Source: Acinetobacter sp. 10FS3-1
Lineage (GTDB): Bacteria > Pseudomonadota > Gammaproteobacteria > Pseudomonadales > Moraxellaceae
Assembly (NCBI RefSeq): GCF_013343215.1
Contig: NZ_CP039144.1
Coordinates: 186,001 to 250,000, forward strand
Length of the DNA stretch: 64,000 nucleotides
Direction: 5' to 3'
Part shown: one piece after another, positions 15,263 to 64,000 of the stretch
Numbering within the stretch: position 1 is the stretch's first letter
How the letters are laid out: each line of letters starts with the position of its first letter
Position numbers and translations under genes: made by a program
Notes under the pieces: model-generated
The model's database searches: none
What the model saw: only the letters and a program-made list of their open reading frames with translations
Told to the model about the DNA's origin: nothing

Positions 15263-15273
15263 TGTTTTTCCCC

Positions 15274-16212: not shown

Positions 16213-16223
16213 ATTCATCCACC

Positions 16224-19270: not shown

Positions 19271-19285
19271 GAATTATGTCTGAGG

Positions 19286-20067: not shown

Positions 20068-20121
20068 TCAAACCTCAGTTTGCTAAATAAACGTCAAAGA
20101 ATGATTTACGGAGCATAAGAA

Positions 20122-20934: not shown

Positions 20935-20955
20935 AAATAGGTTTTGGGCTAAAAG

Positions 20956-41900: not shown

Positions 41901-41911
41901 TATATAGACAT
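38906..41911 (-). CDS. dotA: DotA/TraY-type polytopic membrane protein with Gly-rich tail
   Basis: A 1001-residue protein. The N-terminal region has membrane helices near residues 50-80 and 105-125. A periplasmic domain of about 450 residues follows, and then a cluster of six or so helices (about residues 600-780), as in DotA of Legionella and TraY of IncI plasmids. The last 200 residues are soluble and Gly/Ser/Asn-rich, with two copies of GAGANGTTSNP and many G-X-Y triplets (GAT, GGA, GAN) that look collagen-like. AGGA precedes the ATG. It is transcribed alone, away from the other Dot genes, as dotA is in Legionella. The tail is not part of the classical family and could be a plasmid-specific surface or assembly element. 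Confidence 0.88.
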   Translation of the reverse strand: MSIYCQIASNPDCSNDQAITMLGSIFGKNFIDAFISGSSPANAQPEVGTLAPVLMGGIASIAFSLSIVIASCLLLTALLNSAQDGEAFGTGSSKATIVMRFLFSWLMLLPTPSGYSVIQVILMTFVLWSNGSTNKLYQDSIKEALFSTRGLSQPTDATRDIWGLRATAIQALRQIHCVSVLNAEFYGQEPKTNVWLARSSTNANISVPPGWTANIIPSDRVMGTFMYGHYDKAYNKQSVDASDTRTFTKATFFYATSDKGGKIGTSTSGICGYRTLTIQRFDTQVQSFIDSINNPNDKDLTYDGDLKKAVGLSSDEQKTALNAIVTLNQSIQAKKYNFMISYLMQLEKWYMDQNIIVTASENVGENPFKNASIASLDNLVDSNITQANTIVKNLLSSGHDAAFGAALDALSNMLVGKGWTQASSIRQRVLGFQNEMQKANKAQVFTFSDPVLNETVVSGEQGKAIRASVVEAFDAFTAKIITRQDWNVGLGELGASQGLSNATDAAAAQRSAENYIATNTTWINDLQTAVVYALLHGGSGPSEKYAQQKSNSVNPLSKYNSETDVIANMQKAGEYMMAASVAANMLKISVESVYLSGRLLPGFFFEDKKNQVLDAVYHFVSSIAYPILTTLMMACMALGLYMAVIIPSMPTLFFTTAVVAWFIHIIQAMAGLPLWSLMHMIPERTFAGSQTQGYVTIIALFLRPILTLVGLWFGFILSNPILFYVTDAFWGSQLLQFNSTQGGDISAVFFGFVTFAGWMTAYCTLILAVCYMIFGLCSQLPNTVLEWLGSSLNAGNWGESNAQTSIQGISGNTPKGGGGGKELKRPNSNPKNGGNEPSGGGGSTAYSGKSPANGLTQMPVSHSLTGGGKGGSGATGGAGANGTTSNPTAGGIGGAGATGGSGATGGAGATGGAGANGTTSNPARTQSYGANGATVVGGGGSYAGGTSNVQSSNTATMTTSLNSQKPKGMSFNASVTPPMSSGKTSSSGGARGKTGNGKKGG

Positions 41912-43798: not shown

Positions 43799-43834
43799 AA
43801 AAAAGAAGCCCTGAAAGTTCAGGGCTTCTTTTTT
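43799..43834. terminator. Bidirectional intrinsic terminator
   Basis: A 15-bp perfect stem (AAAAGAAGCCCTGAA and its complement) with a two-base loop lies between a + strand stop and a - strand stop. The last codon of the - strand gene overlaps the end of the hairpin. Confidence 0.92.
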
Positions 43835-46460: not shown

Positions 46461-46482
46461 ATCAGCACCAATAGGAATAAGC

Positions 46483-47028
46483 CTATTCCGTTAAATCAAA
46501 TGAGAAAGTTTCTGCTTCTTCTCTTTGCGCTTTGTGATAAAGCGTAGTGAAGTGGCTATGAAGATCGCATATTAGATCGTCATTTTGTAGGGCATAAAGT
46601 ACCGCACTTTCAATCAAAGCAACGCTGATACTTTCTTGTACTTTTTTTTCGGCAGCAATGAGTTCAGCATTGTGACGAGTAGAAAGGAAATGCAAGGCAC
46701 GAATCTGTAGAAGGCTATCTGTAGCTTTAATATCAGCAGCACGTTCACTTAAAGCTTGGTTCTCTATTTTGAGATCAGTTCCTTCAACTTCTGTAATGAA
46801 CTTAGCCAAAGCACGATAAGTTAATGGGTACTTAGTCAACCAATCGGTACGACTACCAAGTGGAGTTTCAATAACTTCATCCACAGCCAAAATTTGTGAG
46901 AGATTCACACGATTACTTAGAATAAGTGTTTGTGCATCTACAGATACTTGAGCAATAAATGGTTCTGCTGAGAACTCTTTTAACAATACATAGCTCAATG
47001 GCGCATATTTTTTATCTTCGGTCGTCAT
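46483..47028 (-). CDS. Unknown soluble protein
   Basis: A 181-residue protein with a beta-rich first third (FIAQVSVDAQTLILSNRVNL) and a helical remainder ending in an acidic tail. No signal, membrane segment or known domain is seen. It sits 7 bases after the 268-residue unknown gene, so the two are probably translationally coupled. Confidence 0.6.
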   Translation of the reverse strand: MTTEDKKYAPLSYVLLKEFSAEPFIAQVSVDAQTLILSNRVNLSQILAVDEVIETPLGSRTDWLTKYPLTYRALAKFITEVEGTDLKIENQALSERAADIKATDSLLQIRALHFLSTRHNAELIAAEKKVQESISVALIESAVLYALQNDDLICDLHSHFTTLYHKAQREEAETFSFDLTE

Positions 47029-47035
47029 GGGTAAC

Positions 47036-47842
47036 TTACTCCAAGTTTATATAGGCTTTTTGACCATATTCCATATTATAAACTTTATTCATTTTAATTC
47101 CTATAATTATATCACCATTTTCGTTTAAGCCTTTTGTTAGGTCTTTTCCTTTATATAGATAAACAAGCTCTTTTCTAGCAAGATTTATTGTATTTTTTAG
47201 AATAAAACTTTCTATATTTTTATTCATACAAATACACATCAAAGTAATGCTTTTATTTTTAGGTATATACTCTTCATAAGGGTTTACCTCAAAGAAGCGC
47301 ACACCCTTAATAAACTCACCCGCATCAATCAAACGCTGAACAGAAACACCTTTGGTTTCTTGCTGTATGAGGTTGAAAATAGAGCTTAAATCCTTAACTT
47401 TTTTGAGGTTCTTTAGATCAATTTCCAAGCCAATACCAATTTTCTTAGATAAGAAAAGCGATAATACCTTTTCATAATCAATATCATTTTCTTGAATAAG
47501 AATACTGTTTATACGCTCAAATATTTCATCGTTTTCAATATCATTATATACAAGACGAAGAGTGGGTTTATTATATCGAAGGGTATTATAATTTTCGTTG
47601 AAAGAAATATCATTAACCTCAATTAATATTTTTTTAAACTCTAGCCTAATAGAATCTTTTAATATTTTAATTATGCGTTCATCTATTTCATTTGAACCAA
47701 CAGTAATATTCTTAATATACATTTCTTGAAATGCAGCAAGGGATAATAGCAAAGGAGCTTCTGATGGTTTAATATCACCTTTATTTAAAAATACACTAAC
47801 TGTATTTTTCAATTTATCAGGAATAACAATAGGTTTATTCAT
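47036..47842 (-). CDS. Unknown A+T-rich protein
   Basis: A 268-residue protein rich in Ile, Asn and Lys. Codon use is clearly more A+T-rich than in the neighbours, which hints at a separate origin. No membrane segment or known motif is seen, and the start has no clear ribosome-binding site. It lies in the - strand run behind the giant proteins. Confidence 0.55.
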   Translation of the reverse strand: MNKPIVIPDKLKNTVSVFLNKGDIKPSEAPLLLSLAAFQEMYIKNITVGSNEIDERIIKILKDSIRLEFKKILIEVNDISFNENYNTLRYNKPTLRLVYNDIENDEIFERINSILIQENDIDYEKVLSLFLSKKIGIGLEIDLKNLKKVKDLSSIFNLIQQETKGVSVQRLIDAGEFIKGVRFFEVNPYEEYIPKNKSITLMCICMNKNIESFILKNTINLARKELVYLYKGKDLTKGLNENGDIIIGIKMNKVYNMEYGQKAYINLE

Positions 47843-47916
47843 ATAATTTTATCTTTAACGTCTGACAGATCGTTTAATAAACTTAATTGAAAAGGGGGAA
47901 TATTTCACCCCTTTGT

Positions 47917-48375
47917 TTATGGATTGATTGCAGCAATATAATTGTGCAAATCTACACGATGCGCTTTTTCTTTGAAGTATGTATTAAAGACAAATATAAG
48001 AGCTGATGACACCAACATAAACATTGGTGGGTTTTCACGGTTAATGCCTACTACGCTCACCATATTACCGGCACGTTTTTCGTGCGTGAACTGAAAAATA
48101 AAGTTATCTTGCTTGGTTCCAGTAAATGCCCCTAATTTATGCTCAACCATTCGTATAATAAAAGGGAAAATGAGCTTTTGAATCCGGTTAGCATTACGCA
48201 TCTTACGATTATTATAGATAAAGCAGTGATCTTCATGCTCACCTAAATATTCAGTAATGAGTGAGTTCGTAATGTGCTGTAAAGAGCTGATTACAGCTTT
48301 GTCCTGTTCAGTTTGGACATATTCAATTGATTCAATCGTCTGTGTTTCAGACGTTTGTTGAGTATTATTTTCCAT
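47917..48375 (-). CDS. Unknown small protein
   Basis: A 152-residue protein. After a polar, Gln/Thr/Glu-rich N-terminus of about 25 residues the rest looks folded, with IQKLIFPFIIRMVEHKL and FMLVSSALIFVFNTYF as hydrophobic parts that could be buried strands or helices. AAGG precedes the ATG. A 6-bp hairpin lies just upstream of the ribosome-binding site (48393-48412). No family is recognised. Confidence 0.58.
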   Translation of the reverse strand: MENNTQQTSETQTIESIEYVQTEQDKAVISSLQHITNSLITEYLGEHEDHCFIYNNRKMRNANRIQKLIFPFIIRMVEHKLGAFTGTKQDNFIFQFTHEKRAGNMVSVVGINRENPPMFMLVSSALIFVFNTYFKEKAHRVDLHNYIAAINP

Positions 48376-48439: not shown

Positions 48440-48458
48440 GGGCTTACATTGTAAGCCC
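48440..48458. repeat. Near-perfect 19-bp palindrome over the giant gene's stop codon
   Basis: GGGCTTACA and TGTAAGCCC flank a single T. It overlaps the stop codon of the 2.8-kb-codon gene and lies 65 bases before the next start. It has no T run, so it is more likely a binding site or an mRNA-end structure than a classical terminator. Confidence 0.55.
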
Positions 48459-51400
48459 ATCTTCACGTTCTAACTCCTGACCTTTCTCGTTCTTACACTC
48501 TTTATCTTTTTCAGCATCAAGAGTGTTTTCTTTAGATTGAGAAAGTTCATTTTCCGCAACATTAACTTTGCTTGATTGTAGAATGTGCTGACCAATATAT
48601 TCAACCAGAGCATCCACCTTTTTCTCGATTTCTTCTAGCTCAGGACCAACCGGTAAGATCGGACTTTCTATTGTGCTGTTACCTGATGCCAAAAATGTGT
48701 TTTTAAAGCCCAAATCTTCAAGCTTTTTATTTATATACGCTTCACCGGTACGAGCAAACAATTCCCACGGCGTAGCCCAATAGTCCTTGCCACCTCGTTT
48801 GTCCTGGCGTTGAGCGAAACGATAGAACTCAGTAGGAATTTTCTCAGCCACGGCTTGAGCATCAGCAGAAGCAACAACCGCTACCGCAGCCGGAGTAGGT
48901 TTAGGCAGCTCAAGTAAATTTGTAACGCTATGGCTGCGTACAAACTCACTAACCTTATCTTCGCTCTTGAGGTGATCAGGAGCATATTTAAGTATCTGAT
49001 CACGCATGTATAGCGCAGACTGGACAGCCATCAACTTACAATGCAATCCACCCATTTGATCAGCAATAGATTGAGAGGAAATATCCTTCACCAAGCCATC
49101 AATTACTTCTTTACGTTGCTTTTCACTGTAATGTGGGTATTGGGTCTTAACAAAGGTAGTGACTGACGATATACCGAACTGTGGTGTACTCTTTTCAATG
49201 AGGGTAGAGAATTGATCAGAAGCATATTTAAACCCACTCAGATTAGTATCATCCTTGCAATGCTTGGCATCCTTAGCAAATACCTTCTCAACTTTGTTGT
49301 TATAGTTCTCCGCGATAGATTCAGACTTTTTGAGCGTCCATTTCAGATACTCTTCAAGGTCGTTACCTTTCGGTTCCACACCGGCAACACTGAAAGTTGG
49401 TCCAGTACCTTGCAGTTTGGATGCTTTGTCATACCACTCAAGCTGTAGCTCGCTCTTTTTAGCACTCAATAGGTACGATAGTTTCTGGTTGCCTGGCTCT
49501 ACCTCTGCCGGAGCAGCTTTAGGCTGTTCAGGAGATTTGAAGCGCATACTTTCCATAATATCGACCATCATTTTCGCCATAGGTGTGCGTGGTTCATAAC
49601 CACGAGCAACCATATCGGATAAAAAGTGAGTAGCGTTCACGGTAGCGGTTGGCAAATCAAACTTCTTATCTAGGAGGTAGTTCTTTTCTAGTTTGCCGAG
49701 GTAATTGTCTAGGCTATGGAACCATTCATGGGCGAGTGAACCCGCGCCATTTTGACCAGACAGATTAATGATATTGTTTGCCAGGTCATAGTGAGCTGCT
49801 GCGCCCTTGCTACCACGAGAAGCGAATGCCAGTCCAGTACCTAAGGAAATCTTAGATTCATCCAGATTCAAAACTTTCGCCAGATCACGCATTGCATCAA
49901 AAGCAAGGTTCGCTACTTCTTGACGGACATACAGAGGGGTAGAGTTACCAAACTCAACGGCGTTCATACCGAAGGTATTTCGCAGATCAAACGCATCAGC
50001 ATTTTTGCCTTGACGATAATCTTCACCAATACGAGTAGAAGAGAGCATACCCCAACGAGAAGATTTCACTTCCTGATGAATAACTCCTTCACGACCATCG
50101 ACAGGCGTTACTACTGCCATTGTCTTGCTGTCACGATCAAGTGAGTTTTCTGGTGCAGAAGGTTTAGGTTCCTTTGGTTGCTTCGGTGTAGCTTCTTTCT
50201 CCTGAGTAGGTTCAGGGAGTTCAGCCAACACTTCTTCGTAGCTACGGACAGGTACGTTGCTTTCTTTAATCTCTTTGGCAGCATAATAACCAAGCTTATC
50301 TACCAGGTTAGTAGTCAGCTCACCGGTCTGTATATACAGAGCAAATTCTTTGCTGATCTGTTTGTCTTTTACAGGGTCCTCAGAGAAGTCATTTATGTGT
50401 TCATAGATGTTCTGGAACTCATACTTACTATTTTTCGGATTTAGCAGCTTTCCTGTAGCCTTTTGAAGTGCTGTATTCAAAAGTGGATGAAACGGATAGC
50501 TTTTTAGATTTGGTTCGCGCAGTTCACTAAATAGTGGGTTAATGTAGCTAGGAGCATCCAATAAGATATTTGATACGGAATGGTCCGAATAGCTCTTTTT
50601 GGTTGAGTACAATCTTTCAAGGTTATGTACCCCAAGTGACCTACCATACGAGTTATTCAGTTCGCTAGACAACTGAGATATTTTTGACGCGAAATCAGTC
50701 AGGCTGTTTGATAGGTTTGTCGCGTTACGAACACCTGATACCATGTCGTTGTAGAAGCCAAGACTATAAACGCGCTTCATAATGTCTTTTTCAGCACTCT
50801 CAAGCAATTTAGGTTTTCCAGGCAACATATCGTAGAAAGCCTGAGCAACGATAGCGAATTTCATATCACCTGTACGCGCTGCAACTTCTTTGAAGTCTGG
50901 CTTCGTCCAGATTTTACTTTTGTTCACTAATGATTGAGCTTCGGCATTAGACATTTGACGGATATTGTCAATAGAGAAGTTATAGCCATAGCGGTCTTTA
51001 TGTGCACCTCTGAGCTTGGTTCCTACATCCCCGAAATAGCCCCGGTTATCATTTCCGGTTGCATTATCCTTACCAGACAACAATTGGCGAGTAGCTTCAA
51101 AATCTTTTGGTAGTAGATCAGATGCTTGAAGCATGGTATTCAGTTTTTCAGCCTGACTAACTTCTTGATACTTATTACCCGAATCATCAAAGCCGTGGCT
51201 TGTAATCACTTTCCAACCATCTTCCACCGCCTTGTGAGCGTCTGACTGGCGTACATCAACCAATTTGAAACGTGCAAGCTCCGTATCTGTTGAAGGCTTC
51301 ATTACTAGGGCGTGACCTAAAGCAGACTTTTTGCTATTAAGAATATTAGCGAAATGCCAAGCAATGTTGTTTTGCAGATCACTAGCACATCGAGCTTTAA

Positions 51401-54400
51401 CCAGTTCAGTTGTATTCGGGTCCAAGTCTTGAGCCTTCAACGGCGACAGCGTGATTTCTGTGGTATCAAGAACCAAACGCTCTACCAGATTGTTAGATTC
51501 AACAATAGCCCCGAAGCCAGTTGCTTTGGTGATATTGTCAGCTTGTAGCTCAAGGTTGGCTTTATTACCTAAATCCACTGAGCCGACGCTGTATACAGAA
51601 CCCTTTGCAGAAATCGCATGGCGATTCGTGTCTTTATGGTCAACAACAAGTATTGGGAACTTGTCATCAGCATAATTCACCAGGTACACATTCGCAGTTT
51701 CCAGTTCTGATTGTGGCATATTGTGTTTTGGATGATTCGGGTCAGCTTTGATCTTCTCCACAGCATTTGCCAATAGTTCTGCTTGATATATCAGGCTTTC
51801 ACGGTAGTAGTCTTTAAGACTATTATGATCAGTGATCATCTTACTCGACATATCTTCGTGAATAGCAACTTCATCCAGATCAGCTTTAATTGTGAATGGG
51901 TCATAGAAAGGATGGTTCTTGTTGTCCAATTCATCTTTGAAAAGATTGATCGCTGATGCAGTAAAGATAGTGCGAGGAATATCTACTGGTTCAGCATTTT
52001 TCAATTCCTCAATATGCTGATCTAGGTCAAATCTTTCATTGAACGCATTTGGTCGTAAGTTTTGAGCAAGCACCGCTTTTGAACCCAATGGCTCTAAATT
52101 ACTAGAATCCGGGATTTTCACATAGCTTGGTACTGCGCGTAAGTGAGACAAGTCATTTGCATTAAAACCGCGAGACTTGTACAGCACCATCGGCACACCC
52201 ACAAATGGCTCTTTAAGCTGTGCGTCGATTAGGTCATCTACAGACTGCGCATTCTTAAATTCCGGCTTTTGTGTGTAGTTATCAAAGTGACTGAATGACC
52301 CAAACATCGGTTTAGTATCCAATAATGCGATATCACGCTTTATTGCGCCGTAGTCTAGGTTTGCCAGAAAATCAGCTTGGATACTACGCAAATTGTAGCT
52401 TTGTGCTTGTGGGAATGAAGATATAGACGCTACTTGTTTGTTCTGCTTATTCAGAAAATCAAACAGCTTTGGTGTGAAGTTGATATTTGCCTTGTATTCA
52501 TCACTTAACTGGCTGTTATCCAGACGAGGGAAATACATCATTGGTTTATCAATGTACTCGTCTCGTCCGTTATGTCGTGCCAGAGCTTTGATGTAGCCAT
52601 TCACATTAAGTAAAAGGGCATCATTTTGGCTAATCGGCATATTTTTCGAGCCGACAAAGTTTTCAATGTAGTCAGTCAGGTAAATCGTCGCTTCACTGAC
52701 TTTCCAGTTTTCAGCAGCAGCACCTAAACCAAGATCGCTATTCAACCCTTTTAATGCTTTGTAGCTAATCGTTTCTGGCAGCAAGCGATAGATTGGACTA
52801 TCCATATTGCTGCTCATTGTTGGCAAGACAATATCCAGTTTGTCGCTTTGGATTTGTGGCAGCATAGTAATTAAATCATTCCAAGCCTGTACAGCACGTT
52901 CACTCATATCATTCACGTACTGCGTTGGGTTCTCAAACTTAATGCTGAGATCATCTAGGCTAGGACGGAAGTATTCGCGTAGGGCTTTGAACTCCTGGCT
53001 TGGCTCTAAAGTTTTAGCGTATACAGTCGCAATGCTGCTTTCAGGTAGAACATCATAGTCCAGACGTTCAATTGGTCCATCAGCAAGGATTTTTGCCAGT
53101 ACCGTTGTACGAGTTAAGCGGTCTACTTCATCACCTGAAAGACCTGAAATCACTGTATTACCTACAGTCAGATCATGGGCTACATCAGCTTTCTGTTCGT
53201 CTGTTTCAGGCTCAATCAGTTTGAAATTCGCATCTTTAAAATCGTCATAACTAAGTTCTGCGAACCACAGCTCTTTAGATAACGCCTTAAATTCAGCTTC
53301 ATTCTCAGGCTTGGATGAACGAATGAGTTTGGCAATCTGCTCGATCTTTGGTGCTTCTTCCGCTTCAATATTCAGTTGGCTGAATACATAGTTCAAGCGG
53401 AACTGGTCATAGGATTCTTCCAGAGCAACTTCATAATTTCGGGATTTCATCGGCTGATACTTGGCTGTATCCAGATCAGCATTTAGATCGTATGGAATCA
53501 CCTTGAATTGATCTACCTGACCTGGGCGACCCATAGCCCAACCAATTGACTTAACGCCATCTAGGGAAGGTTGTACAGGTGGTACGAAATTAGTAGTGAA
53601 ATAAGCTGCTAGGGCAACTTGGTTATTGATATTGTTCTCATGCTGAACAAAATCACCTACTGTTCTGCCATCTTTGAACAGAAGCGTCTCTTTCAGTTTA
53701 GGGTTTGATTCCTCAACTTGAGCAGCAGTCCATAAGTTCAGCTTATCCTTAGCATCCTTAAATGCCTGGTCAGAGTATCTAAAACCATAGGTATCTTTAA
53801 TTTCTTGACTACCGCGCTTAATACCATTCATGTAGTTGGTAGAAGCACTGTCATTCAGGTCTTTATCCGCAAAGCCACGCATCATGCGGGTTAAGTTGCT
53901 TGTTGGGGTATCAATATCAAATTGGTTTTCACCAGTAATATTTTCCAGACCTTTAAGCATCACAGCCACATCAGAAACAATACCCGCAGCTTTTCCAAAG
54001 CCTTTTAAATGATCGCCAATTTGATTATGGAGAATCTTTAAAGCCGGCATTTCATTGGTAATGGTGTGGTGCTTTTTAGCCTTCTTAATGCGCAGTTTTG
54101 CTTTCAGGAAACGGCTGTTCTGATAGCGACGACCGAATGCACGATTAAAACGTGGCAGACGCGATTTATTAATAACAGTGATATCGCGTAATGGATATTG
54201 AGATTCCATCATTGTGCGGGTCGCATGATCAACCAGTAAATCCAGTTTCTCCGGCTGACGATATGATTCATTGGAGAATAAGGTTTGATATGCCTTAGTC
54301 ACACGATCATCTAGTGCTTGCTGATCTTCTTTCTCGTTTTCCGAATATACCAGGCGCGAAGATTCTAAAGAGCGATCAAAAGCCACTTCAATGCGGTTGA

Positions 54401-56864
54401 TACGATTAAGGATTGCATCTTGGTTCTCTAGGGAAATCGAGAGTTGATTTTGAACTTTTTTCCATTCATCCTGAATTTCAACCAGTGAACGAGATTCTGG
54501 CATGGTGTAAGGGTAGAGGTCTTTTGTCAGACCCATGTTATTGACCATTTCACGTTCATAGACCGCATCACGCTCGTTTTTCAGCGTTACTGACAGGTCT
54601 TTAAGTGACTTAATCTCTTTTTCGATTTCAGGTAACAGGAATAGCTTTGCATACAAGCGATAGCTTTGCGCCGTTTGTACTTGCTTTACCATATTTGGGT
54701 CATCAGATTTGATGAATTGACGAGGAACGTAGGTCGCTTCCTGAACCACCAACTCCAATTCACTGTATAGCTCGTTTGGATTCTCAAAAACCAGAGTGTC
54801 TGCACCAGATTCAGCCACAGTATCAAGCTGTGTGCCATCTTGAGTGACTGGCAAAATTACGTCTGATGAAATCGGCTCTACTGCTTCATCGTCAATGTAC
54901 TCAACAAACTCTTGATGCTCTTCTGCAAACGTCACCGGTTCACCAGAAATAGATACAACTTCGGATTCCAGAGTGCTATCCGTGGCAGAAGCATTAGGTT
55001 CGGGGTTGTTGTCCTGGTCTAAATCGTTTCCCTGACTACCAATAGGAGCGATCTGTTCAAGAGCTTCATCCAGAGTGGCATTCACATCCACTTTGCCAAA
55101 TGCGCCATTCAAGGCAGCTTGCATGTTCTGGATATACTCTTCACGCGCCAGTAATGTTTTCTTGCGCTCTTCTGCACCGACTTGTTGAATGAATGCTAGG
55201 GCATCATTGTCGATTGAATTTGAGATCGCTTCTACGCTGATTGGTTGATCTACGTCTACATCCAGTGAAGCTTGTGCCGGAGCCGGAACGTCTGAATTTT
55301 CAAGCTGCTCAACTTCTTCTTCAATCTGAGCATACATGCCTTCAACAATTTCATTCACCTGAGCATCTGTTGGACCCGAAGTGATGGTTGCTTGTGGAGC
55401 CGACATTTCAGAAGCAGGGCGTAGATTGGTTTTGGCAATCAATTCCTCAAGTGATGTTGGTTCCATTTCATCAATAGCATCATTGTCGATTACCGGTAAT
55501 TCTGGCTCTACATAAGGTGGTGGCGCAGTATCGAGGTTAAAATCAAGCGGTTCTTCCTCTGCAACCGGAGTTGGCGCAACAGGTTCCACTTGAGCTTCCT
55601 GAACAGGCTCTTGTTTCAAATAGACCGCTTGGTAATCACGAGCAAACTGTAGAGCATCTGCAACGCTATATTTATTGTTTTCAGCAGAAAGAGGGTGGTT
55701 GCCAGAGAGGTTGTGAACATACGTTTCAACATAGTCTTGGCGTTCTTTCATTAAGCGGAAAAGGTTGTTCGGATTAAGCAGCTCTTTTTCAAACTCGCCG
55801 TCCTTATCGCGTGTCAGGAAGTACCATTGCTGATCTTCTTGATTTTTTCGTAAGTAATACAGGTTATCGTCTGCACCAGGACCTTTTATCGGCTCACGGA
55901 AGCTTAGCAATGACAGGGAAATACGGTTTAGGTCGCGCAAGTCTTGACTGAGTTTTTCGAGTTCAGCTTCAATGCTTTCTTTACTCAGACCATTTTCACG
56001 GACATTATTTTGGTTCAGCGTGTTATGTGCAGATCGGTTGAGAGTATTCAGCGTGAAATCTGCATCAGCGAATAGGACCGCCTTATCACCCCAGGTAGGG
56101 TGTTCACTAGGTAAATGATTGAAGATTTCAGGTACTTCGCGTAAATCTTCAAATGCCAGTATGGTTCCGTTCTCTTGAACAGACACCGCTTGCATAAATG
56201 GAGACAGCTTCTCTTTGCGAATGACAGAATCATCGTGACCATCAGCATAAGCAGCATCTTGTGACGGATATACTTTGATTAGGGCATTGCCTTTGTAACC
56301 AAATTCAGAAAGGGTTTCCATTGGCATACTGTCGATCTGGTGTGCACGTACATACAGAGAAGATGAGTTTTGAACAAAATCATCATATTCTTGCTTGAGC
56401 GTGTTTTCCTGATTACAGCTCACCACATAGTAATCTTTATTGTCTTTTTGGTACGCAGTACGGTTATTCAGGAATAGATTGCGCCATTCTGTATGAGACT
56501 GTTGCGGAGCCGTAAAAGGGGTAATCTCACTGCGAGGGATACTCTTAATATCACCACGCCCCATATTTAGAAAGACATTCTGGAAGTTACGAGGATTCAG
56601 ACCAGAGCTGCCATTAGGGTTGTTATAGACCAACGCCATACGGTTACGATGTTCTGGAATTTCAGAAGGAATGATTTTGAATCCGTTGTTTTTCAATGCT
56701 GCATAGAAGTCATCGGGCTTTTGATTAGAAAGCGCAATAGCTTGTTGAACATCGTTAATGAGTAGGACACTCAAACGCTCGCGGTACTTGTTCTGTTCAG
56801 ACAAAGCCAAATCAGCACCGAAACGTCTCAAGTCAAGCCAGGTAATCTGATCTTGTGAAGCCAT
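48444..56864 (-). CDS. Giant polyvalent protein with LPD1-type metallopeptidase domain
   Basis: A 2806-residue cytoplasmic-type protein. Most of it has no recognised domain. Acidic, Pro/Glu-rich linkers lie around residues 400-700, with long helical stretches elsewhere. Near the C-terminus is an LPD1-type domain. It begins FGMNAVEFGN, continues through LGTGLAFASRGSKGAAAHYD and reaches SLAHEWFHSLDNY with the HEWFH motif at about residue 2379. A later block YWATPWELFARTGEA, whose Glu could be the third zinc ligand, lies some 320 residues on. Such polyvalent proteins of conjugative elements and phages are proposed to travel with the DNA and act in the recipient. I start at ATG 56864; two GTG codons four residues earlier are possible but lack a ribosome-binding site. 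Confidence 0.82.
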   Translation of the reverse strand: MASQDQITWLDLRRFGADLALSEQNKYRERLSVLLINDVQQAIALSNQKPDDFYAALKNNGFKIIPSEIPEHRNRMALVYNNPNGSSGLNPRNFQNVFLNMGRGDIKSIPRSEITPFTAPQQSHTEWRNLFLNNRTAYQKDNKDYYVVSCNQENTLKQEYDDFVQNSSSLYVRAHQIDSMPMETLSEFGYKGNALIKVYPSQDAAYADGHDDSVIRKEKLSPFMQAVSVQENGTILAFEDLREVPEIFNHLPSEHPTWGDKAVLFADADFTLNTLNRSAHNTLNQNNVRENGLSKESIEAELEKLSQDLRDLNRISLSLLSFREPIKGPGADDNLYYLRKNQEDQQWYFLTRDKDGEFEKELLNPNNLFRLMKERQDYVETYVHNLSGNHPLSAENNKYSVADALQFARDYQAVYLKQEPVQEAQVEPVAPTPVAEEEPLDFNLDTAPPPYVEPELPVIDNDAIDEMEPTSLEELIAKTNLRPASEMSAPQATITSGPTDAQVNEIVEGMYAQIEEEVEQLENSDVPAPAQASLDVDVDQPISVEAISNSIDNDALAFIQQVGAEERKKTLLAREEYIQNMQAALNGAFGKVDVNATLDEALEQIAPIGSQGNDLDQDNNPEPNASATDSTLESEVVSISGEPVTFAEEHQEFVEYIDDEAVEPISSDVILPVTQDGTQLDTVAESGADTLVFENPNELYSELELVVQEATYVPRQFIKSDDPNMVKQVQTAQSYRLYAKLFLLPEIEKEIKSLKDLSVTLKNERDAVYEREMVNNMGLTKDLYPYTMPESRSLVEIQDEWKKVQNQLSISLENQDAILNRINRIEVAFDRSLESSRLVYSENEKEDQQALDDRVTKAYQTLFSNESYRQPEKLDLLVDHATRTMMESQYPLRDITVINKSRLPRFNRAFGRRYQNSRFLKAKLRIKKAKKHHTITNEMPALKILHNQIGDHLKGFGKAAGIVSDVAVMLKGLENITGENQFDIDTPTSNLTRMMRGFADKDLNDSASTNYMNGIKRGSQEIKDTYGFRYSDQAFKDAKDKLNLWTAAQVEESNPKLKETLLFKDGRTVGDFVQHENNINNQVALAAYFTTNFVPPVQPSLDGVKSIGWAMGRPGQVDQFKVIPYDLNADLDTAKYQPMKSRNYEVALEESYDQFRLNYVFSQLNIEAEEAPKIEQIAKLIRSSKPENEAEFKALSKELWFAELSYDDFKDANFKLIEPETDEQKADVAHDLTVGNTVISGLSGDEVDRLTRTTVLAKILADGPIERLDYDVLPESSIATVYAKTLEPSQEFKALREYFRPSLDDLSIKFENPTQYVNDMSERAVQAWNDLITMLPQIQSDKLDIVLPTMSSNMDSPIYRLLPETISYKALKGLNSDLGLGAAAENWKVSEATIYLTDYIENFVGSKNMPISQNDALLLNVNGYIKALARHNGRDEYIDKPMMYFPRLDNSQLSDEYKANINFTPKLFDFLNKQNKQVASISSFPQAQSYNLRSIQADFLANLDYGAIKRDIALLDTKPMFGSFSHFDNYTQKPEFKNAQSVDDLIDAQLKEPFVGVPMVLYKSRGFNANDLSHLRAVPSYVKIPDSSNLEPLGSKAVLAQNLRPNAFNERFDLDQHIEELKNAEPVDIPRTIFTASAINLFKDELDNKNHPFYDPFTIKADLDEVAIHEDMSSKMITDHNSLKDYYRESLIYQAELLANAVEKIKADPNHPKHNMPQSELETANVYLVNYADDKFPILVVDHKDTNRHAISAKGSVYSVGSVDLGNKANLELQADNITKATGFGAIVESNNLVERLVLDTTEITLSPLKAQDLDPNTTELVKARCASDLQNNIAWHFANILNSKKSALGHALVMKPSTDTELARFKLVDVRQSDAHKAVEDGWKVITSHGFDDSGNKYQEVSQAEKLNTMLQASDLLPKDFEATRQLLSGKDNATGNDNRGYFGDVGTKLRGAHKDRYGYNFSIDNIRQMSNAEAQSLVNKSKIWTKPDFKEVAARTGDMKFAIVAQAFYDMLPGKPKLLESAEKDIMKRVYSLGFYNDMVSGVRNATNLSNSLTDFASKISQLSSELNNSYGRSLGVHNLERLYSTKKSYSDHSVSNILLDAPSYINPLFSELREPNLKSYPFHPLLNTALQKATGKLLNPKNSKYEFQNIYEHINDFSEDPVKDKQISKEFALYIQTGELTTNLVDKLGYYAAKEIKESNVPVRSYEEVLAELPEPTQEKEATPKQPKEPKPSAPENSLDRDSKTMAVVTPVDGREGVIHQEVKSSRWGMLSSTRIGEDYRQGKNADAFDLRNTFGMNAVEFGNSTPLYVRQEVANLAFDAMRDLAKVLNLDESKISLGTGLAFASRGSKGAAAHYDLANNIINLSGQNGAGSLAHEWFHSLDNYLGKLEKNYLLDKKFDLPTATVNATHFLSDMVARGYEPRTPMAKMMVDIMESMRFKSPEQPKAAPAEVEPGNQKLSYLLSAKKSELQLEWYDKASKLQGTGPTFSVAGVEPKGNDLEEYLKWTLKKSESIAENYNNKVEKVFAKDAKHCKDDTNLSGFKYASDQFSTLIEKSTPQFGISSVTTFVKTQYPHYSEKQRKEVIDGLVKDISSQSIADQMGGLHCKLMAVQSALYMRDQILKYAPDHLKSEDKVSEFVRSHSVTNLLELPKPTPAAVAVVASADAQAVAEKIPTEFYRFAQRQDKRGGKDYWATPWELFARTGEAYINKKLEDLGFKNTFLASGNSTIESPILPVGPELEEIEKKVDALVEYIGQHILQSSKVNVAENELSQSKENTLDAEKDKECKNEKGQELEREDGLTM

Positions 56865-57114
56865 ACGTTTCACCACTTTTATAATTGATTTATCAAATAG
56901 GTCGAAATGAGCCTATGCCATCAAGTTTATATCAAAACCCTGCATTCCCATAGGTTAGAAGTTGTATATACAGACAAGTTTTTTGATTATTTTTCTCGTT
57001 TTTCACCGGGGGAAATTCGCCGTAGTAGAGCATTAAAAATTAAGATTTCTCCATTTCTTAAACAAGAAAAAATAATATTCAATGCTTTTCTTTATTTATC
57101 ATTGTCTTACAGTG

Positions 57115-57662
57115 TTTTTGGAGTAGAGGGTTTTTTAATTAATTTTAAAATTAATGTAGAATGTTTTCCTATAAATATCATAACTTTACTTAGTTTTTGG
57201 AGTGAAGGGTTTTTATAAGCTTAGAGAATTTATTTTTTGGAATTTGCTACCAGTCTGGGTCTACCATAAATCACCACCTCCAACTTCCCTATTGTAGAAT
57301 AAAAAAACAATGTAGATACTTTTAGCTTAAATATCAATAGTTTACTTATTTTTTGGAGTGAAGGGTTTTTAATTTAATTTTAGAAATTAATGATAATAGT
57401 TTTCTTATATTTATCATGTGCTTATAAAGTTTTTGGAGTAGAGGGTTTTTTAATAAAAAAAATTAATTCATCAAGAAACTTACTTTGCTATTCACCTAAC
57501 AACAGAAGGAATAATAAAAAATAATGTAGGTACTTTTTCCATAAATATCATTAATTTACATAACTTTTGGAGTGAAGGGTTTTTAGTTTAATTTTAAAAT
57601 CAATGTAGATAGTTTCCCTTTAAATATCAGTATTTTACAAATTATTTGGAGTGAAGGGTTTT
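57115..57662. repeat. Six copies of a GGAGTGAAGGG-centred repeat, about 79-bp period
   Basis: TTTTTGGAGTGAAGGGTTTT-type cores occur at 57115, 57194, 57350, 57430, 57565 and 57645. The spacing is 79, 156, 80, 135 and 80 bp, that is, near multiples of 79 with one irregular step. Between cores are similar A+T-rich stretches (ATTAATGTAGA, then TAAATATCA). The array lies upstream of the 2806-residue gene and downstream of the other giant gene. It holds no convincing gene. Confidence 0.88.
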
Positions 57663-57670
57663 ACTCCATA

Positions 57671-57697
57671 AAAAAAGCCACCCTAAGGTGACTTTTT
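57671..57697 (-). terminator. Intrinsic terminator after the second giant gene
   Basis: AAAAAGTCACC pairs with GGTGGCTTTTT (one wobble pair) around a short loop on the - strand, followed by T residues. It lies 15 bases after the stop. Confidence 0.75.
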
Positions 57698-57711
57698 GTG
57701 ACAACTAGGAA

Positions 57712-60700
57712 TTAAAGTGCCATTCCCAACTGTTCTTCTTCTGGTTTTTTCTTCGCTGCTGATACCTTCTCTAACCGCTCTGCCATTGCCAGACGTTGAG
57801 GGTCTTGCTTCAAGAAATTCTCATATTCCTTCTTGTAATGAGCATCGAACTCTTGAGGTGTCATTTTCTCAATCACATCGAGCTTACCGCGCAGTTCTTC
57901 TTCACGCTCAACATTACGCACATCCAGGCTTTGCAGTTCAGAAAGTTCATGTTTGATGTAAAGCAGATGGTCACGTAAACGCATTTCCGGCAAGTTTTCT
58001 TTAATGTGGTCCATTGCCACATTGATGAAATCTTTGTAGGAAGTAACGATCTGTTCACGCTCTGTACCCATTGGACGAGCATTACCCATGATTCTCTCTT
58101 GTTCAAAGCCAAGAGCGTTGTTATCACCACGGTCACGGCGTACCAACCAGTCGTTGTTACCCATGTTCTTTTCTTTTTGCCCTTCGATAGTGACAGCTTC
58201 ACCACAGCGAGCAAACTCTTCCAGAATGGTAGACCAGTAGTTTGTACTACGTCCTTGCATAGCGTCGAGATAAAGAGCGTCACGATGGAATACAGTAGTA
58301 TTCAGTACAGTATGGCGGTGAGCCATGTAATTGAATACGTCCAGTGCATGACCCTTACCGTTTTCAGCCTGAATGGTTTTTTCAGGGAACTGATCACGCA
58401 TTTTTTCCAGTAAGAAACGTGTTGCTGCAAGTGCATCCACATCCTCAACCAAGTCTGGGATAACAACTTTTGCAATGTGAGAACGTGCAGTTTGGCTAAA
58501 CGCATTGAATCTTGCTTTCAATGTTTTTTCATCCATACCCGCAGCTTCGTACTCTTCTGCCATAGTTTTACGATATTCAGGCAGTTCATAGTTATAGGCT
58601 GTATCCTTGTTACCAAAAATCCAACCAACCGCTTTTTCACGGTACTCTTCCATCTTAATGTTACGCTTGGATTTATCATTAAGATTCTGGTCCATGACAT
58701 GCTCCGTTAAGCTATCGTAGAAATAGTTTTTACGGTTTGCTTCACGCGCTTTGAACACTTTAACGATTTCATCAGCAGCAGCTTTGCCATATTCAGGTGA
58801 ATGAGCACCCGCTTTATGTGCCATAGCAATTACCCGCATCTTGTAATGTTCTTCCTTCTCGCGCAAATTACGAATCACGCCATCTAGGTCTACTTTCTCG
58901 TAGTTTGGACGACGAATATTCTCAATCATCACACCCATTACTTTTGCTGCATCACTAACAGCCTCCGAGCGAGTGCTTCCTAGCTCTTCGGACAAGAAGC
59001 GATTACGCATAAAGCGTTCAAGTTTAGGGTTTTTCTGAACCTCAATATCCATCATGGCATTATCGAGAGCATGGAACCATTCGTGAGCAAATGAGCCGTA
59101 GCCTTTCTTCTTGGTCAAGTTGATCACACGGAAATCGCTTTCATAGTGCGCCAATGCACTTTGACTTCCACGAGAACCGTTTGCCAGTGCCATTAAGCCG
59201 TCAAAGCCCACCATACGGTCAGGAATGTCGATCATCTTAGCAAGGGCAGCACAGCCGTCATAAGCTAGGTTAAGAGCTTCCTGACGGTCTTTCTGGTTCA
59301 AATAGTTACCAAACTCACATGCCTTGAATCCAAAGCGGTGTTGCAGCTCTTCTGCTGTGACATTACGCCCATTACGGTCGCTAAAGTCATTCACCATAAG
59401 TTTCGGGTCATCAACAGTCGGCATAAGGGATTTCTTCGACGACATTTCCTTCATTTCGTTGTTGATGCTATTCATAATCTCGTTTAGTTCTTCACGAGCA
59501 TTACGACGGCGTTCTTGCCATTCTTTTTTGCGTAGTGTTTCTTCTGTTTCAGTTTTCGGATTTAGTGCTTTGTACACCATATTCAACTGATCATCATTCA
59601 AAGAAGCTTTTAGCTGTTTGTTTTCAAGCAGTGAATAATAGTGAACACCCTTTGGTAAACGATCACGGAAACTTGAATGACGGAATACCTGTGAATAAGC
59701 TTTACCCATTTCATAAGAAAGATCAGTGATCTTGCTAAAATTCTGCGCAAGAGTATCAACATCCTTGAGACGAGCAGGGTCTTGATCAGCAAGGCGATCT
59801 CGTGCTTTTAGCACCACATCAAAACTTTGCTGTTCTTTCCAGAACTGCTGAATCTGTCTGTACGGAGCCTTGAAGTTACGTTGAACTTCCTCATGGAATT
59901 TAGGGTTTGCTTCCCATGATGAATACACATCACTTAATGCCTTGCGAATATCGGTCAGGTTGGTCTTGTCGATCACCGCATTACGGATATCCGTTACAAC
60001 CTGGTTATAAACTACACCTACACGAGTAATCTGTTCTGGGCTAGTGTTTACAGCAGTTGGAAAATCAGGCTGTGAAGGCATGATTTTACGCAGACAGTCA
60101 GTGATCAAGTATGCGCGAACATCAATACCTTTTTCCTGAGCATATTCAACGGAGGTCTTTTTCCACATTTTATTCAGTTTCAAAATACCTTCCATTTGTT
60201 TCAGTGTCATAGCTTCGATCTGAGAAACAGTCAATGTGACGTTATACAGGTCTTTTTTCGCACCAGGAATCTTGTAGCCAGTATCTTCAATTTGATCACC
60301 ACTTGGGGTTTTTGGCGTTGAAGATTTACGTGGAGCAGGGGCAATCGGAGTAGCTGATTCTTGCTGTTCAGAAGTAGGCTGCGGAATCTTAGGAGGTTCA
60401 ACTTTCGGCTCCTTAGGTTCCTTCGGCTCTGTAGGTTCTACTACAGGCTCCTTCGGCTCATTAGGCTCTACAACAGGTTCCGGCTGTGGTTGTGGTTTTA
60501 CTACAGGTTCCTTAGGTTCTTTTGGCGGTACAGGCGGTGAAATATGTTCCTGATTGTTTGTTGCTTCAATCACTTCAACCGCGTGTTTTTGCTCTTCCAG
60601 ATCAGCACCGGCTTCACAGTCTGATGCAATCATATTCAGTGTGGCATTCTTGTCATTTAGAATACTCGTATCCAGTCCTTCAATCACATTACGGATGTTA

Positions 60701-63700
60701 TGTGGCGCGTCTGGCAAGGCGGTTGGAACAGATAGTAAAACAAAACCATCAGACAACTTTTGCTTGTTGAACTCGTGCACAGACGGAAGCACAGCAATTG
60801 ACGCATGCTTGGTTTCTGTTGCCGGTTGGTATGCCATAACAGCATTGTGCGGGTTCAGGACGCTTTCAGGCGGTTTGCGGTTATGATCAGCCATGCTTGG
60901 CAGTAAAGCAGCCTTAGTCGCTTCATAGCCCTCTTTAATCAAGCGTGATGCTATTACCTGTTGATAAGGGCCAATACGGTGTGTACGAGCTACCGGAAGC
61001 GTAGTGCCTTGAATGTTTGCCAGATTATTAGCATTGTTCAGGACTTGGCTAACTGCGCGTGGACCCGCGAAATAAGCACTGTCTGAGGTACGGCGATTAG
61101 ATTCAACCACCTGGTCTTTAAACTCTTTTTTACTGTAGACATGACCAAAAGAAAAAGCTGTGTCGATTCGGTTGGTGTATTCCACTGGTAGATCAGGTGG
61201 AACCACCAGGAAACGTCCAACCAGTTCTTCATTACCAGTCAAGCGAACCACGTTGTAGTCATCAGGACTGCCAAGAGCTTCCATTTGGTTTTGAACGTCT
61301 TGCATTAAGAATTTATGCAAGTCATCAACACTGGCAATGTTGGCTTGACCAAAACGAACAGTATGCGCCGACAGCTCATGTTGAACGTCCACAATCGTCA
61401 TCAAAGCTTTGCTGTTGTCAGCAATTGGACTAACAATATCTGTGCCTAGAGAGTAGTAGATACCAGTGTTATAAGCTGCTTGATCTGAGAGAGCTGCACG
61501 GAGAGGGGCAACTTCCTTGCCTTTGGTCGCAATTTCATTTTCAAGTTGCGCTTTAAGAGCATTTTTCTCTTCAAGGTATTTGACCTGATAATTACCTTTA
61601 AGCTTTGCATCCTCAGGCGGTTTCACAAATTCCGGCAACAACACATACGCACCATGCTCTTTGCCTTTTGGTGGAATCTCATAAACAAAGAGGTCAGCAC
61701 GGTTGAACTGATGATTGTTAGGATGATCAGGGTTTTGCTTTTTCGCTTCCTTCTGATCAGAAAGATTGATGGCATCCAAGATCATTTGAGGTGGCATAGC
61801 AAACACGTTTTCACGCATTGAAGCTAAGGCAATATTGCCATACGCATCATCTAAGCCCTTAAAGACTTCACTAGAACGAATCTCAAGATCGGTATTATCC
61901 AAGCGTTTAAGCATACCCGCCGTAGGATAAGGTAGGTCGTGCAAATCAATCTTCGCTGTCATAGACAGAGGAATTGCAGCATCTACCGGGCGATACGGTT
62001 CCGGTGGGATTTCCTGACCAGTTCTTTCGAGATAATCTTCATACTCGCGTTTGTCCAGGTAATCGTCCTGGTCATCCTCTTCAAAACGTCTGCTTGGGCG
62101 AGCTACATCAAGTTCAACCACTTTTGCAGTAATCTCTTTGTTTAGCGCATCAAAAGACATTTCATGTAGGTTATCGACTGTACCTAAACGAGCACTGTTG
62201 ATTTTTTCCCACGCCAAGTCAGTATCAGTATTACGGTTTGCACCCGGACCATCACGGTATGCCAGTTGTTTAGCGATATCGTTTAGATCAGCCGGAAGAA
62301 TACGCATGTACGACAGATTTGCATTAGTGCGTGTCACCACATCCAAGTTCTGTTGATACGAAAATTCAGAACTTTCAAACATGCCTAAGTTGTTTTTGAA
62401 CTGATTTACCGCAGTGCCAATGAAGTCATGGGTAACATCAGACAGACTTTGTGGGTTCGGCTGAACTTCATAACGGCGTTCACGAATCGTCGGCTGCATG
62501 TATTCAAAGACTTGGCTGAATTGTTTATCAGAGTTCAAGGTGTTGGCAATGTAATCCGGCACTTTGCCTGTAGAGTTGTCATAAGGTTCAATTGATACAT
62601 TCTTATGGAACAACACATCAGCAGCTTGAATCGCAGTTAAAGCAGTCTGGTAGTCCAGGGCGTTATCGAATTGCGTAGTAACACTTGGGTCCGAAATCAG
62701 GCTGAGTTTCAGGTTTGCACTGTCTACAGTAAAGTCATCTAAAGATGGCACACCATTTTTGTAATAGTTCGCAGTCTTGTCATTGATGCTCTTAAACAAG
62801 CGTTCAGCAGCTTCAATTAATGCTTCTTCATCTTCTGCTTCTAGCTGTTTTTTGTGGACGGCAATCAGGTTTTCCATGTTGGTTGCCACATCACCGCTAA
62901 AGCCTAAATCTGTATAGAGCTTATTACGGCTATATGCAGCAAAACCGAGTGCAGCAGCATCACGCAGATTGCGTACACTCAACTCTTCTTGAGTGTCAGG
63001 CTTAATGTCGCCCAATTCGATACTGTTGATCTGGAATGGTTTATCGCTGTTTGCACGGTTCATCACCCAGACATGCTTACGGTCAGCAGGGTAGTCATCG
63101 TGATTTAGCGAAGGGATAAAGTTCTGAACATAGTGCAGGGCTTTACCTTGTTGATGTGTCGCGCTCGCACCTAAGCGATAGTAGCTTTCATTAAAATTCA
63201 CGCATGCTGCCTGAGCTTCAACATAGCTAGTTTTCACTTGGGTTACATCAAGTGTTGGGTTCTTCAAGGACTGATCGTAAGCGATCACACCTGGAACGAT
63301 GTGGCTTAAAATGTCTGCTGCTGCCTGTGCCTTGAACTGAATATGATCACCAACACCGAGCATTGGGTTAGTTATACCGTATTGTTCTTTGCTTTGTAGT
63401 TTTAACCAGTCCTGTACAGCTTTATTGCTAGACAGCATCGGAATAATACTTTGACCTGATGCACGTTCAATCATGTGAGCATCACGCGCAATTTTGGTCA
63501 GGTTGTCGAAGATACGTGTATCAGCAAGAATGTTATTTGGAGAAGAGTTTTCCAATTCAGCATATAGCTCTGCGCCATTTTGCAGCAGCAATTTAGCGTA
63601 TTCACGTAGACGTTCCTGAATAACAAAATCAGCTACCGCAGTGTTGATGTTTTCTTGAGGTTGAGCATTGTCAAAATCAGGAAGTTTAACCACGGTGATG

Positions 63701-64000
63701 CCTGAATGTGGCAATGTTTCAAAGCTGATTGGAGCCAGAGGTTCAGACGCAATGTTTTGGCGAGTGATAGTACGCGCTTCAACATTTTGAACGAACTGAA
63801 CCAGATCAGCATTTTCGTGAACGATATTGCCGAAGCCAAATGTTTCATTGGTGAAGTTAGCTTTAATTTCATTTTTGGCATCTTCAAAACCGGCTTCAAT
63901 CTCATGTTCGGTCATTGCTTTATGCAGTAAAAGGTTATCTACATATTCAGGCTTAACGAAGTCTGATTTGTAATCATGGATGTGCTCGCGCAGATCATTT
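57712..64000 (-). CDS. Giant polyvalent protein with LPD1-type domain, 5' end outside window
   Basis: The frame is open without a stop through the right edge of the window (28 further codons upstream of the ATG at 63915, reading LREHIHDYKSDF and on), so the gene is truncated here and longer than 2095 residues. It has large helical regions without recognised motifs. A Pro/Glu/Lys linker with repeated KEP and VVEP units is at about 60350-60545. A C-terminal LPD1-type domain begins FGFKACEFGN and runs through MALANGSRGSQSALAHYE to SFAHEWFHALDN (HEWFH at 59071-59085). A block YWSTILEEFARCGEA follows nearer the end. It shares this layout with the neighbouring giant, so the two are paralogues at least at the C-terminus. 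A predicted zinc peptidase acting in the donor or recipient is the family hypothesis. Confidence 0.82.
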   Translation of the reverse strand, partial: NDLREHIHDYKSDFVKPEYVDNLLLHKAMTEHEIEAGFEDAKNEIKANFTNETFGFGNIVHENADLVQFVQNVEARTITRQNIASEPLAPISFETLPHSGITVVKLPDFDNAQPQENINTAVADFVIQERLREYAKLLLQNGAELYAELENSSPNNILADTRIFDNLTKIARDAHMIERASGQSIIPMLSSNKAVQDWLKLQSKEQYGITNPMLGVGDHIQFKAQAAADILSHIVPGVIAYDQSLKNPTLDVTQVKTSYVEAQAACVNFNESYYRLGASATHQQGKALHYVQNFIPSLNHDDYPADRKHVWVMNRANSDKPFQINSIELGDIKPDTQEELSVRNLRDAAALGFAAYSRNKLYTDLGFSGDVATNMENLIAVHKKQLEAEDEEALIEAAERLFKSINDKTANYYKNGVPSLDDFTVDSANLKLSLISDPSVTTQFDNALDYQTALTAIQAADVLFHKNVSIEPYDNSTGKVPDYIANTLNSDKQFSQVFEYMQPTIRERRYEVQPNPQSLSDVTHDFIGTAVNQFKNNLGMFESSEFSYQQNLDVVTRTNANLSYMRILPADLNDIAKQLAYRDGPGANRNTDTDLAWEKINSARLGTVDNLHEMSFDALNKEITAKVVELDVARPSRRFEEDDQDDYLDKREYEDYLERTGQEIPPEPYRPVDAAIPLSMTAKIDLHDLPYPTAGMLKRLDNTDLEIRSSEVFKGLDDAYGNIALASMRENVFAMPPQMILDAINLSDQKEAKKQNPDHPNNHQFNRADLFVYEIPPKGKEHGAYVLLPEFVKPPEDAKLKGNYQVKYLEEKNALKAQLENEIATKGKEVAPLRAALSDQAAYNTGIYYSLGTDIVSPIADNSKALMTIVDVQHELSAHTVRFGQANIASVDDLHKFLMQDVQNQMEALGSPDDYNVVRLTGNEELVGRFLVVPPDLPVEYTNRIDTAFSFGHVYSKKEFKDQVVESNRRTSDSAYFAGPRAVSQVLNNANNLANIQGTTLPVARTHRIGPYQQVIASRLIKEGYEATKAALLPSMADHNRKPPESVLNPHNAVMAYQPATETKHASIAVLPSVHEFNKQKLSDGFVLLSVPTALPDAPHNIRNVIEGLDTSILNDKNATLNMIASDCEAGADLEEQKHAVEVIEATNNQEHISPPVPPKEPKEPVVKPQPQPEPVVEPNEPKEPVVEPTEPKEPKEPKVEPPKIPQPTSEQQESATPIAPAPRKSSTPKTPSGDQIEDTGYKIPGAKKDLYNVTLTVSQIEAMTLKQMEGILKLNKMWKKTSVEYAQEKGIDVRAYLITDCLRKIMPSQPDFPTAVNTSPEQITRVGVVYNQVVTDIRNAVIDKTNLTDIRKALSDVYSSWEANPKFHEEVQRNFKAPYRQIQQFWKEQQSFDVVLKARDRLADQDPARLKDVDTLAQNFSKITDLSYEMGKAYSQVFRHSSFRDRLPKGVHYYSLLENKQLKASLNDDQLNMVYKALNPKTETEETLRKKEWQERRRNAREELNEIMNSINNEMKEMSSKKSLMPTVDDPKLMVNDFSDRNGRNVTAEELQHRFGFKACEFGNYLNQKDRQEALNLAYDGCAALAKMIDIPDRMVGFDGLMALANGSRGSQSALAHYESDFRVINLTKKKGYGSFAHEWFHALDNAMMDIEVQKNPKLERFMRNRFLSEELGSTRSEAVSDAAKVMGVMIENIRRPNYEKVDLDGVIRNLREKEEHYKMRVIAMAHKAGAHSPEYGKAAADEIVKVFKAREANRKNYFYDSLTEHVMDQNLNDKSKRNIKMEEYREKAVGWIFGNKDTAYNYELPEYRKTMAEEYEAAGMDEKTLKARFNAFSQTARSHIAKVVIPDLVEDVDALAATRFLLEKMRDQFPEKTIQAENGKGHALDVFNYMAHRHTVLNTTVFHRDALYLDAMQGRSTNYWSTILEEFARCGEAVTIEGQKEKNMGNNDWLVRRDRGDNNALGFEQERIMGNARPMGTEREQIVTSYKDFINVAMDHIKENLPEMRLRDHLLYIKHELSELQSLDVRNVEREEELRGKLDVIEKMTPQEFDAHYKKEYENFLKQDPQRLAMAERLEKVSAAKKKPEEEQLGMAL

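Follow-up and report, generated by a model that had tools for sequence, protein, structure and literature searches.

Two giant paralogous proteins with a predicted CLCA_X-type zincin, encoded beside a type IVB transfer system of Acinetobacter: possible escort proteases of conjugation

What could be the reason for a probable megaplasmid to carry, side by side, two genes for giant proteins of largely unrecognised make-up that end in a predicted zinc peptidase and lie among genes of a type IVB transfer system? The question is raised by the 64,000 nucleotides analysed here (the window), i.e., positions 186,001–250,000 of contig NZ_CP039144.1 (C2; 395,494 bases) in the 3.65-Mb genome of Acinetobacter sp. 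10FS3-1; coordinates below are those of the window unless preceded by C2. This contig, or the stretch of it that holds the window, is most likely a megaplasmid because the nearest named record to the locus is the Acinetobacter indicus plasmid pB18-1. The first gene, g1 (48444..56876, − strand), has 2810 codons from a GTG, and its copy deposited in pB18-1, with 0 residue differences, starts at an internal ATG (56864) and thus numbers the 2806 aa given in the original prediction. The second, g2 (57712..64000, −; open reading frame 57712–63999), is cut by the window edge after more than 2095 residues and, when read further in the same contig (C2:243712–251781, −), amounts to 2689 aa, with 1 residue different from the pB18-1 copy. 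The two adjacent giants first noticed in the window are therefore real, and they are not chance reading frames because orthologues 26–34% identical to them keep the same order in plasmid pAJ_082-2.

BLAST and HMMER comparisons indicate that g1 and g2 have in common, and in the same order, residues ~12–290, ~1085–1339 (a weak match, iE 0.012), 1947–2071, 2288–2397 (43% identity) and a weakly similar LPD1 end, so that they are full-length paralogues. The first LPD1 giant of pAJ_082-2 (AJ_A) is nearest to g2, the A-type paralogue, and the second (AJ_B) is nearest to g1, the B-type paralogue; the duplication is therefore older than the split of the two megaplasmid lineages. As judged from the sequence, each giant consists of an N-terminal domain (N-domain), a long fast-diverging middle, a helical domain (D3) and a CLCA_X-type zinc peptidase.

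The peptidase is the part in which the original prediction needs most revision. The HEWFH motif is indeed found in both proteins, at residue 2383 of g1 (49716..49730, −) and residue 2233 of g2 (59071–59085), HExxH being kept in 10 of 10 alignment rows including these two, and the accompanying motif blocks were read correctly on the whole, except that the VEFGN of g1 is CEFGN in g2. That the domain is of the metallopeptidase type also stands, but its assignment to LPD1 does not: the HEWFH part matches the NCBIfam family CLCA_X (NF041907) and PHROG families, whereas Pfam LPD1 (PF18796) corresponds to the YWxxxxExFAR block. The zincin is thus made of two parts, the first extending over residues 2281–2400 of g1 (49677..50036, −; NF041907 and PHROG matches, AF2) and 59017..59379 (−) of g2, the second, LPD1, lying at 48588..48803 (−) in g1 and at 58021..58257 (−) in g2. 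In g1 they are separated by a long segment (residues ~2401–2680; 48837..49676, −), the distance between HExxH and LPD1 being 309 residues in g1 and 276 in g2 as opposed to 59–103 in 27 other loci. With a Pfam cut-off of 27 bits, LPD1 is recognised in g1 (51.9 and 57.5 bits in separate scans) but not in g2 (24.8, 19.4 and 19.1 bits), so that the claimed presence of LPD1 in both giants holds at that threshold for g1 only. Likewise, against a CLCA_X cut-off of 260 bits over 250 positions, g1 scores 114.3 bits and the window part of g2 93.5 bits, whereas solo CLCA_X proteins of 256–267 aa reach 334–374 bits; the deficit of the giants is probably due to the splitting of their zincin.

The predicted fold is that of a lethal-factor-like zincin spanning both the helix that bears HExxH and a Glu helix further on, which suggests that the HExxH and LPD1 parts form a single zincin fold. 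Both a Tyr and a Glu are conserved in the LPD1 part, the Glu being proposed as the third zinc ligand, and the predicted zincin is very probably competent for catalysis. Like the CLCA_X proteins described by Lenart et al. 2013 (PMC3650047), g1 and g2 have HExxH with a nearby Asp, belong to a mobile element and are long proteins without other known domains; the Asp is two residues past the second His (HEWFHSLD in g1, HEWFHALD in g2) as opposed to three in the HExxHxxxD of that source. Unlike the CLCA_X proteins, they have the widely spaced peptidase parts and the low scores (114 and 94 bits) mentioned above, and some 2000 residues precede the zincin, among them an N-domain that, in the family genomes and viral contigs searched, turned up in the genus of the host alone.

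This N-domain (residues ~8–130 of g1; 56487..56855, −), of ~120 aa and with a pattern approximating W-[LI]-[DN]-[LM]...G near its start, is common to g2 and, by profile only, to a third giant of 2328 aa encoded outside the window (C2:267427–274413). The latter is a putative methylase/helicase with a Pfam Strawberry-notch helicase; the Pfam scan of this copy gave no methylase match, and its relative in plasmid pAB3 also carries N6_Mtase. When the N-domain profile of the giants was compared by hhalign with the profile of the helicase family, a match was obtained with E 2e-7 and a probability of 94%, covering 101–119 columns and colinear from residue ~8. As controls in this comparison, 21 further N-terminal families from the plasmids, 13 of them by position channel or other transfer-region proteins, did no better than E 0.029; when the helicase family was divided lengthwise into 12 tiles, the first alone matched, the remaining ones reaching at best 0.076. 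The N-domain is also the only part for which the g1 and g2 family profiles match strongly (E 2e-35). Among 299 genomes from the host's family, 7 have it, the host included, all seven in the host's genus, and no viral contig matched it.

By contrast with the two ends, which align between lineages by BLAST at E 1e-3, the middle (320–1856 in g1, 262–1765 in g2) does not align at all at this threshold, and gap-rich global alignments of it yield 17–34% identity. In g1 it occupies residues ~330–1940 (51057..55889, −) and is followed by D3 (residues ~1947–2080; 50637..51038, −), which in g2 lies at 59911..60294 (−). Most of each giant is without recognised domains in Pfam, NCBIfam, PHROGs and PADLOC, as had been anticipated, the first 594 residues of g2 being covered by Pfam and PHROGs; apart from the zincin matches, PHROGs returned only families of unknown function. 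The further effector domains that the original prediction had envisaged were not borne out, the CLCA_X/LPD1 zincin being the only domain recognised by these scans. The giants resemble the polyvalent proteins of Iyer et al. 2017 (PMC5512222) in being very large and plasmid-borne, with genes of a type IV secretion system (T4SS) adjoining and a zincin-like metallopeptidase (MPTase); they differ in having one recognised catalytic domain each, no ArdC-N, primase or other effector being recognised. Of the marks of such proteins, which include at least two unrelated functional domains, T4SS or phage late genes nearby and delivery into the recipient with the DNA, g1 and g2 display the second, and as to the first they have one recognised enzyme besides the uncharacterised N-domain and D3.

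The reading that we favour, tentatively and at somewhat less than even confidence for the chain as a whole, is that g1 and g2 serve the type IVB conjugation system as a pair of escort proteases. The N-domain would be a sorting or docking module by which the giants reach either the Dot/Icm-like channel or the DNA being transferred; the giants would act early in the recipient, where the peptidase might cut itself, releasing the middle, or cut a recipient protein, and the methylase/helicase would meanwhile protect the incoming plasmid DNA. The link with a type IVB system, proposed at the outset, is upheld by a conserved gene neighbourhood: reciprocal best hits connect the window to genes of plasmids pM3-1-68 and/or pAB3 annotated as DotL, DotG, DotH, DotI, DotD, T4SS ATPase, DotM and DotA/TraY. 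This linkage, together with the finding that conjugation of pAB3 requires its own Dot/Icm-like genes (PMC10746170), makes it plausible that the type IVB system is the exporter of the giants. That the giants might enter the recipient and counter its defences, as the original prediction proposed, has one further hint in its favour, namely the N-domain that they share at profile level with the methylase/helicase. According to PMC5512222, transfer is established for conjugation proteins that end in an MPTase (ArdC, TraC1), the proposed roles of MPTases are to process the large protein that carries them or to serve as effectors, and methylase/helicase dyads such as DarB shield incoming DNA.

The overall scheme would resemble, via conjugation, that of the Dar proteins of phage P1, in which a DNA methylase/helicase giant (DarB) and an HExxH metallopeptidase protein (DdrB) likewise belong to one mobile element; on the other hand, the N-domain, the helicase giant and the zincin have no significant sequence match there, and conjugation takes the place of phage injection. 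It is conceivable, if rather doubtful, that the N-domain serves Dot/Icm-like conjugation systems as a delivery tag of a new kind, marking a set of giants (two zincins and a DNA methylase/Strawberry-notch helicase) for passage together with the plasmid, as a conjugative counterpart of Dar assembled independently. C2 also encodes, outside the window, a protein of 1915 aa (C2:39887–45634) with an N6-methylase and an SNF2-type helicase and a Pfam make-up much like that of P1 DarB; its C-terminal end, QLCLF, is taken by us to resemble a sliding-clamp motif.

Several observations weigh against this reading. The helicase giant has no match in P1 at E 0.001, and in profile comparisons with two P1 proteins the best E is 0.011 for DarB and 0.0043 for a domain of DdrB lying off the HExxH (0.11 over it), DdrB lacking the LPD1 motif as formulated in this analysis. 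In g1 and g2 no Pfam or NCBIfam match above cut-off was obtained beyond the zincin, PADLOC at E 0.01 gave no match, and no anti-defence domain was recognised. As to the N-domain, when a single paralogue family is compared with the whole helicase family the N-terminus still comes out on top, with E values of 0.003 and 0.006 (probability 11% and 6%); comparison of single sequences reveals no N-domain link between the giants and the helicase giant; the N-domain HMM of the giants finds the N-termini of two helicase members with whole-protein E values of 0.0081 and 0.039 and has no N-terminal match in a third; on the host genome, the N-domain model lists g1 and g2 and not the helicase giant; and the predicted structure is poor (pLDDT 48). 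The sharing of the N-domain is therefore a profile-level claim. Moreover, as far as tblastn sensitivity allows, a DotH relative occurs in 3661 plasmid records (1367 of Escherichia) and a relative of the LPD1 core in 282, of which at most 2 are Escherichia by genus list, so that the core is not general to type IVB plasmids. Finally, a polar stretch with a hydrophobic-x-hydrophobic C-terminal end, possibly a secretion tail, is present in g1, g2, the proteins of 2305, 298, 490 and 920 aa and five others, i.e., in 11 of the 74 C-termini of C2 that are polar, against a background of 5.8% (post hoc p 0.0035); having been picked after inspection, this pattern recurs in 8 of 44 such C-termini (p 0.005) in the stretches retrieved from pM3-1-68 and in 0 of 25 in those from pAB3, its enrichment being weak and pAB3 being devoid of it.

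The transfer genes of the window comprise, on the − strand, a DotL-like coupling protein (1972–4755; Pfam and reciprocal best hits), a Rep3-like gene (4759–5463), a large ATPase-like protein (5536–8811) and dotG-, dotH- and dotI-like genes (13514..17087; Pfam and reciprocal best hits). They are followed on the + strand by dotD-, dotC- and dotB-like genes (19318..22335), with reciprocal best hits to DotD/TraH, a T4SS DNA transfer protein and a T4SS ATPase, the names dotC and dotB being assigned after the dotDCB order in PMC10746170, and by an IcmP/DotM-like protein (24693..26189). An M23 peptidase (35795..37888), a DotA/TraY-like protein (38906..41911; annotated in pB18-1, reciprocal best hits) and four genes downstream of g1 (43833..48375; 152, 268, 181 and 875 aa) are again on the − strand, the 152- and 181-aa products being matched by reciprocal hits in a second megaplasmid.

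In C2, pAJ_082-2, pXBB1-9, pM3-1-68 and pAB3 the genes follow one conserved order, namely methylase/helicase, large hypothetical protein, small genes that include an exported-looking trio, giant(s) and further small genes, the trio being recognised by position only in pAJ_082-2 and pXBB1-9; DotA/TraY and M23 come next in all but pAJ_082-2, whose stretch has other genes there. The trio (431, 398 and 292 aa; C2:251974–255377) is located outside the window, directly upstream of g2, and its paralogous members, inter-related with hhalign E values from 1e-39 to 1e-10 and matched by reciprocal hits in both pAB3 and pM3-1-68, are possibly pilus or surface parts. Also outside the window lies a further giant of 2305 aa (C2:258976–265893), flanked by the methylase/helicase on one side and by the small genes on the other, with no domain above cut-off in Pfam and NCBIfam scans and, by position only, a 1477-aa counterpart in pAJ_082-2. 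CRISPR-type genes are found, likewise outside the window, at C2:137610–143969 and C2:281281–283719; they comprise genes paired by reciprocal hits with Csy1-3 and Cas3f in pM3-1-68 and, close to the cluster of the giants, a Cas6/RAMP set (annotated in pB18-1).

This arrangement bears on the first alternative, namely that the giants never leave the donor, where they would process parts of the transfer apparatus, such as the trio or the relaxosome, or act as a scaffold for them. In C2 they lie between the trio and DotA/TraY–M23, and in pAB3 and pM3-1-68 they adjoin the trio's reciprocal partners, as a donor-side factor might; yet the 1367 Escherichia records with a DotH relative, set against at most two with an LPD1-core relative, imply that related transfer systems manage without such a protein, and the N-domain is common to a DNA methylase/helicase and to 0 of the 21 control families, so that we hold a donor-side role to be rather improbable. 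A peptidase that chiefly cuts a defence or exclusion protein of the recipient, i.e., an inter-plasmid or anti-defence weapon with a merely coincidental link to the methylase/helicase, would suit the lethal-factor-like predicted fold, the published proposal of MPTases as effectors (PMC5512222) and the fast divergence of the middle, as an arms race would predict, but is judged unlikely, since the common N-domain would then require another explanation. Least credible, despite the far C-terminal position of the sole recognised enzyme and the autoprocessing proposed for polyvalent MPTases (PMC5512222), is that the zincin only cuts the giant to mature it, the working part being the unrecognised middle or the N-domain, because many CLCA_X proteins are short (~260–330 codons) and offer little to process: of 29 LPD1-retrieved loci, 23 have frames of 256–333 codons (three of these checked).

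The LPD1-annotated giants of pM3-1-68, pXBB1-9, pAJ_082-2 and pAB3 (one giant) are orthologous to g1 and g2 and occupy the same order in the same cluster; they differ in their 26–34% identity, in the middle that does not align at E 1e-3 and, in the case of pAB3, in a single 1244-aa form accompanied by a 552-aa core. The pair of pXBB1-9 is nearly identical (99.3% and 98.7%) to that of pAJ_082-2. A Stutzerimonas plasmid carries a 1515-aa LPD1 giant between DotA/TraY and DotI-DotH-DotG, and plasmids of Magnetospirillum, Paenibacillus and Vibrio pelagius have an LPD1-core match in stretches without annotated T4SS genes; the type IVB link therefore holds for the giants and not for the core. The 69-kb record CAKLQH020000019.1, labelled 'Acinetobacter phage MD-2021a', contains TraY, TraJ, TraI and korB along with relatives of the zincin and of the methylase/helicase, and has the look of a contig from a conjugative plasmid rather than of a phage. 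The 33,913-bp NZ_CP044459.1 (A. indicus, pigeon stool) has a DotH gene 100% and a recombinase gene 99.8% identical to those of the window, whereas the giants are on pB18-1 (NZ_CP044456.1) and in the window's genome all are on a single contig; the difference may reflect either a split assembly or a rearrangement.

The recombinase in question is a tyrosine-recombinase-like protein of 490 aa (17459–18931, −; intergenic region 18932–19317), whose gene sits between dotI and the divergent dotD in C2, pAB3 and pAYTCM-1. The blocks GLRPxEW, STRHQ and GHA...T...YG are kept in 3 of 3 aligned lineages, and relatives occur in 206 plasmid records, 152 of them Acinetobacter. The protein has no Pfam or NCBIfam match, and PF03432 matches nowhere on C2. 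Tyrosine-recombinase-like relaxases, e.g., MobK, have reportedly been described, and the 490-aa protein may be considered a candidate for the missing relaxase; for related megaplasmids (group III-4a, pA297-3) PMC8490738 states that no relaxase was found.

In the literature outside subscription papers no report on g1 or g2 was encountered, a full-text search gave no 'LPD1 domain' phrase, and PMC5512222 counts LPD1 among the domains of elusive function; the new points made here are its reassignment and the N-domain common to the giants and the helicase. If LPD1 is reinterpreted as the C-terminal portion of a CLCA_X zincin, many proteins annotated as 'LPD1 domain-containing' would be assigned to a peptidase. 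The N-domain represents a small candidate signal that is directly testable, and the giants, should they enter recipients, would provide a conserved handle on the establishment of large conjugative plasmids.

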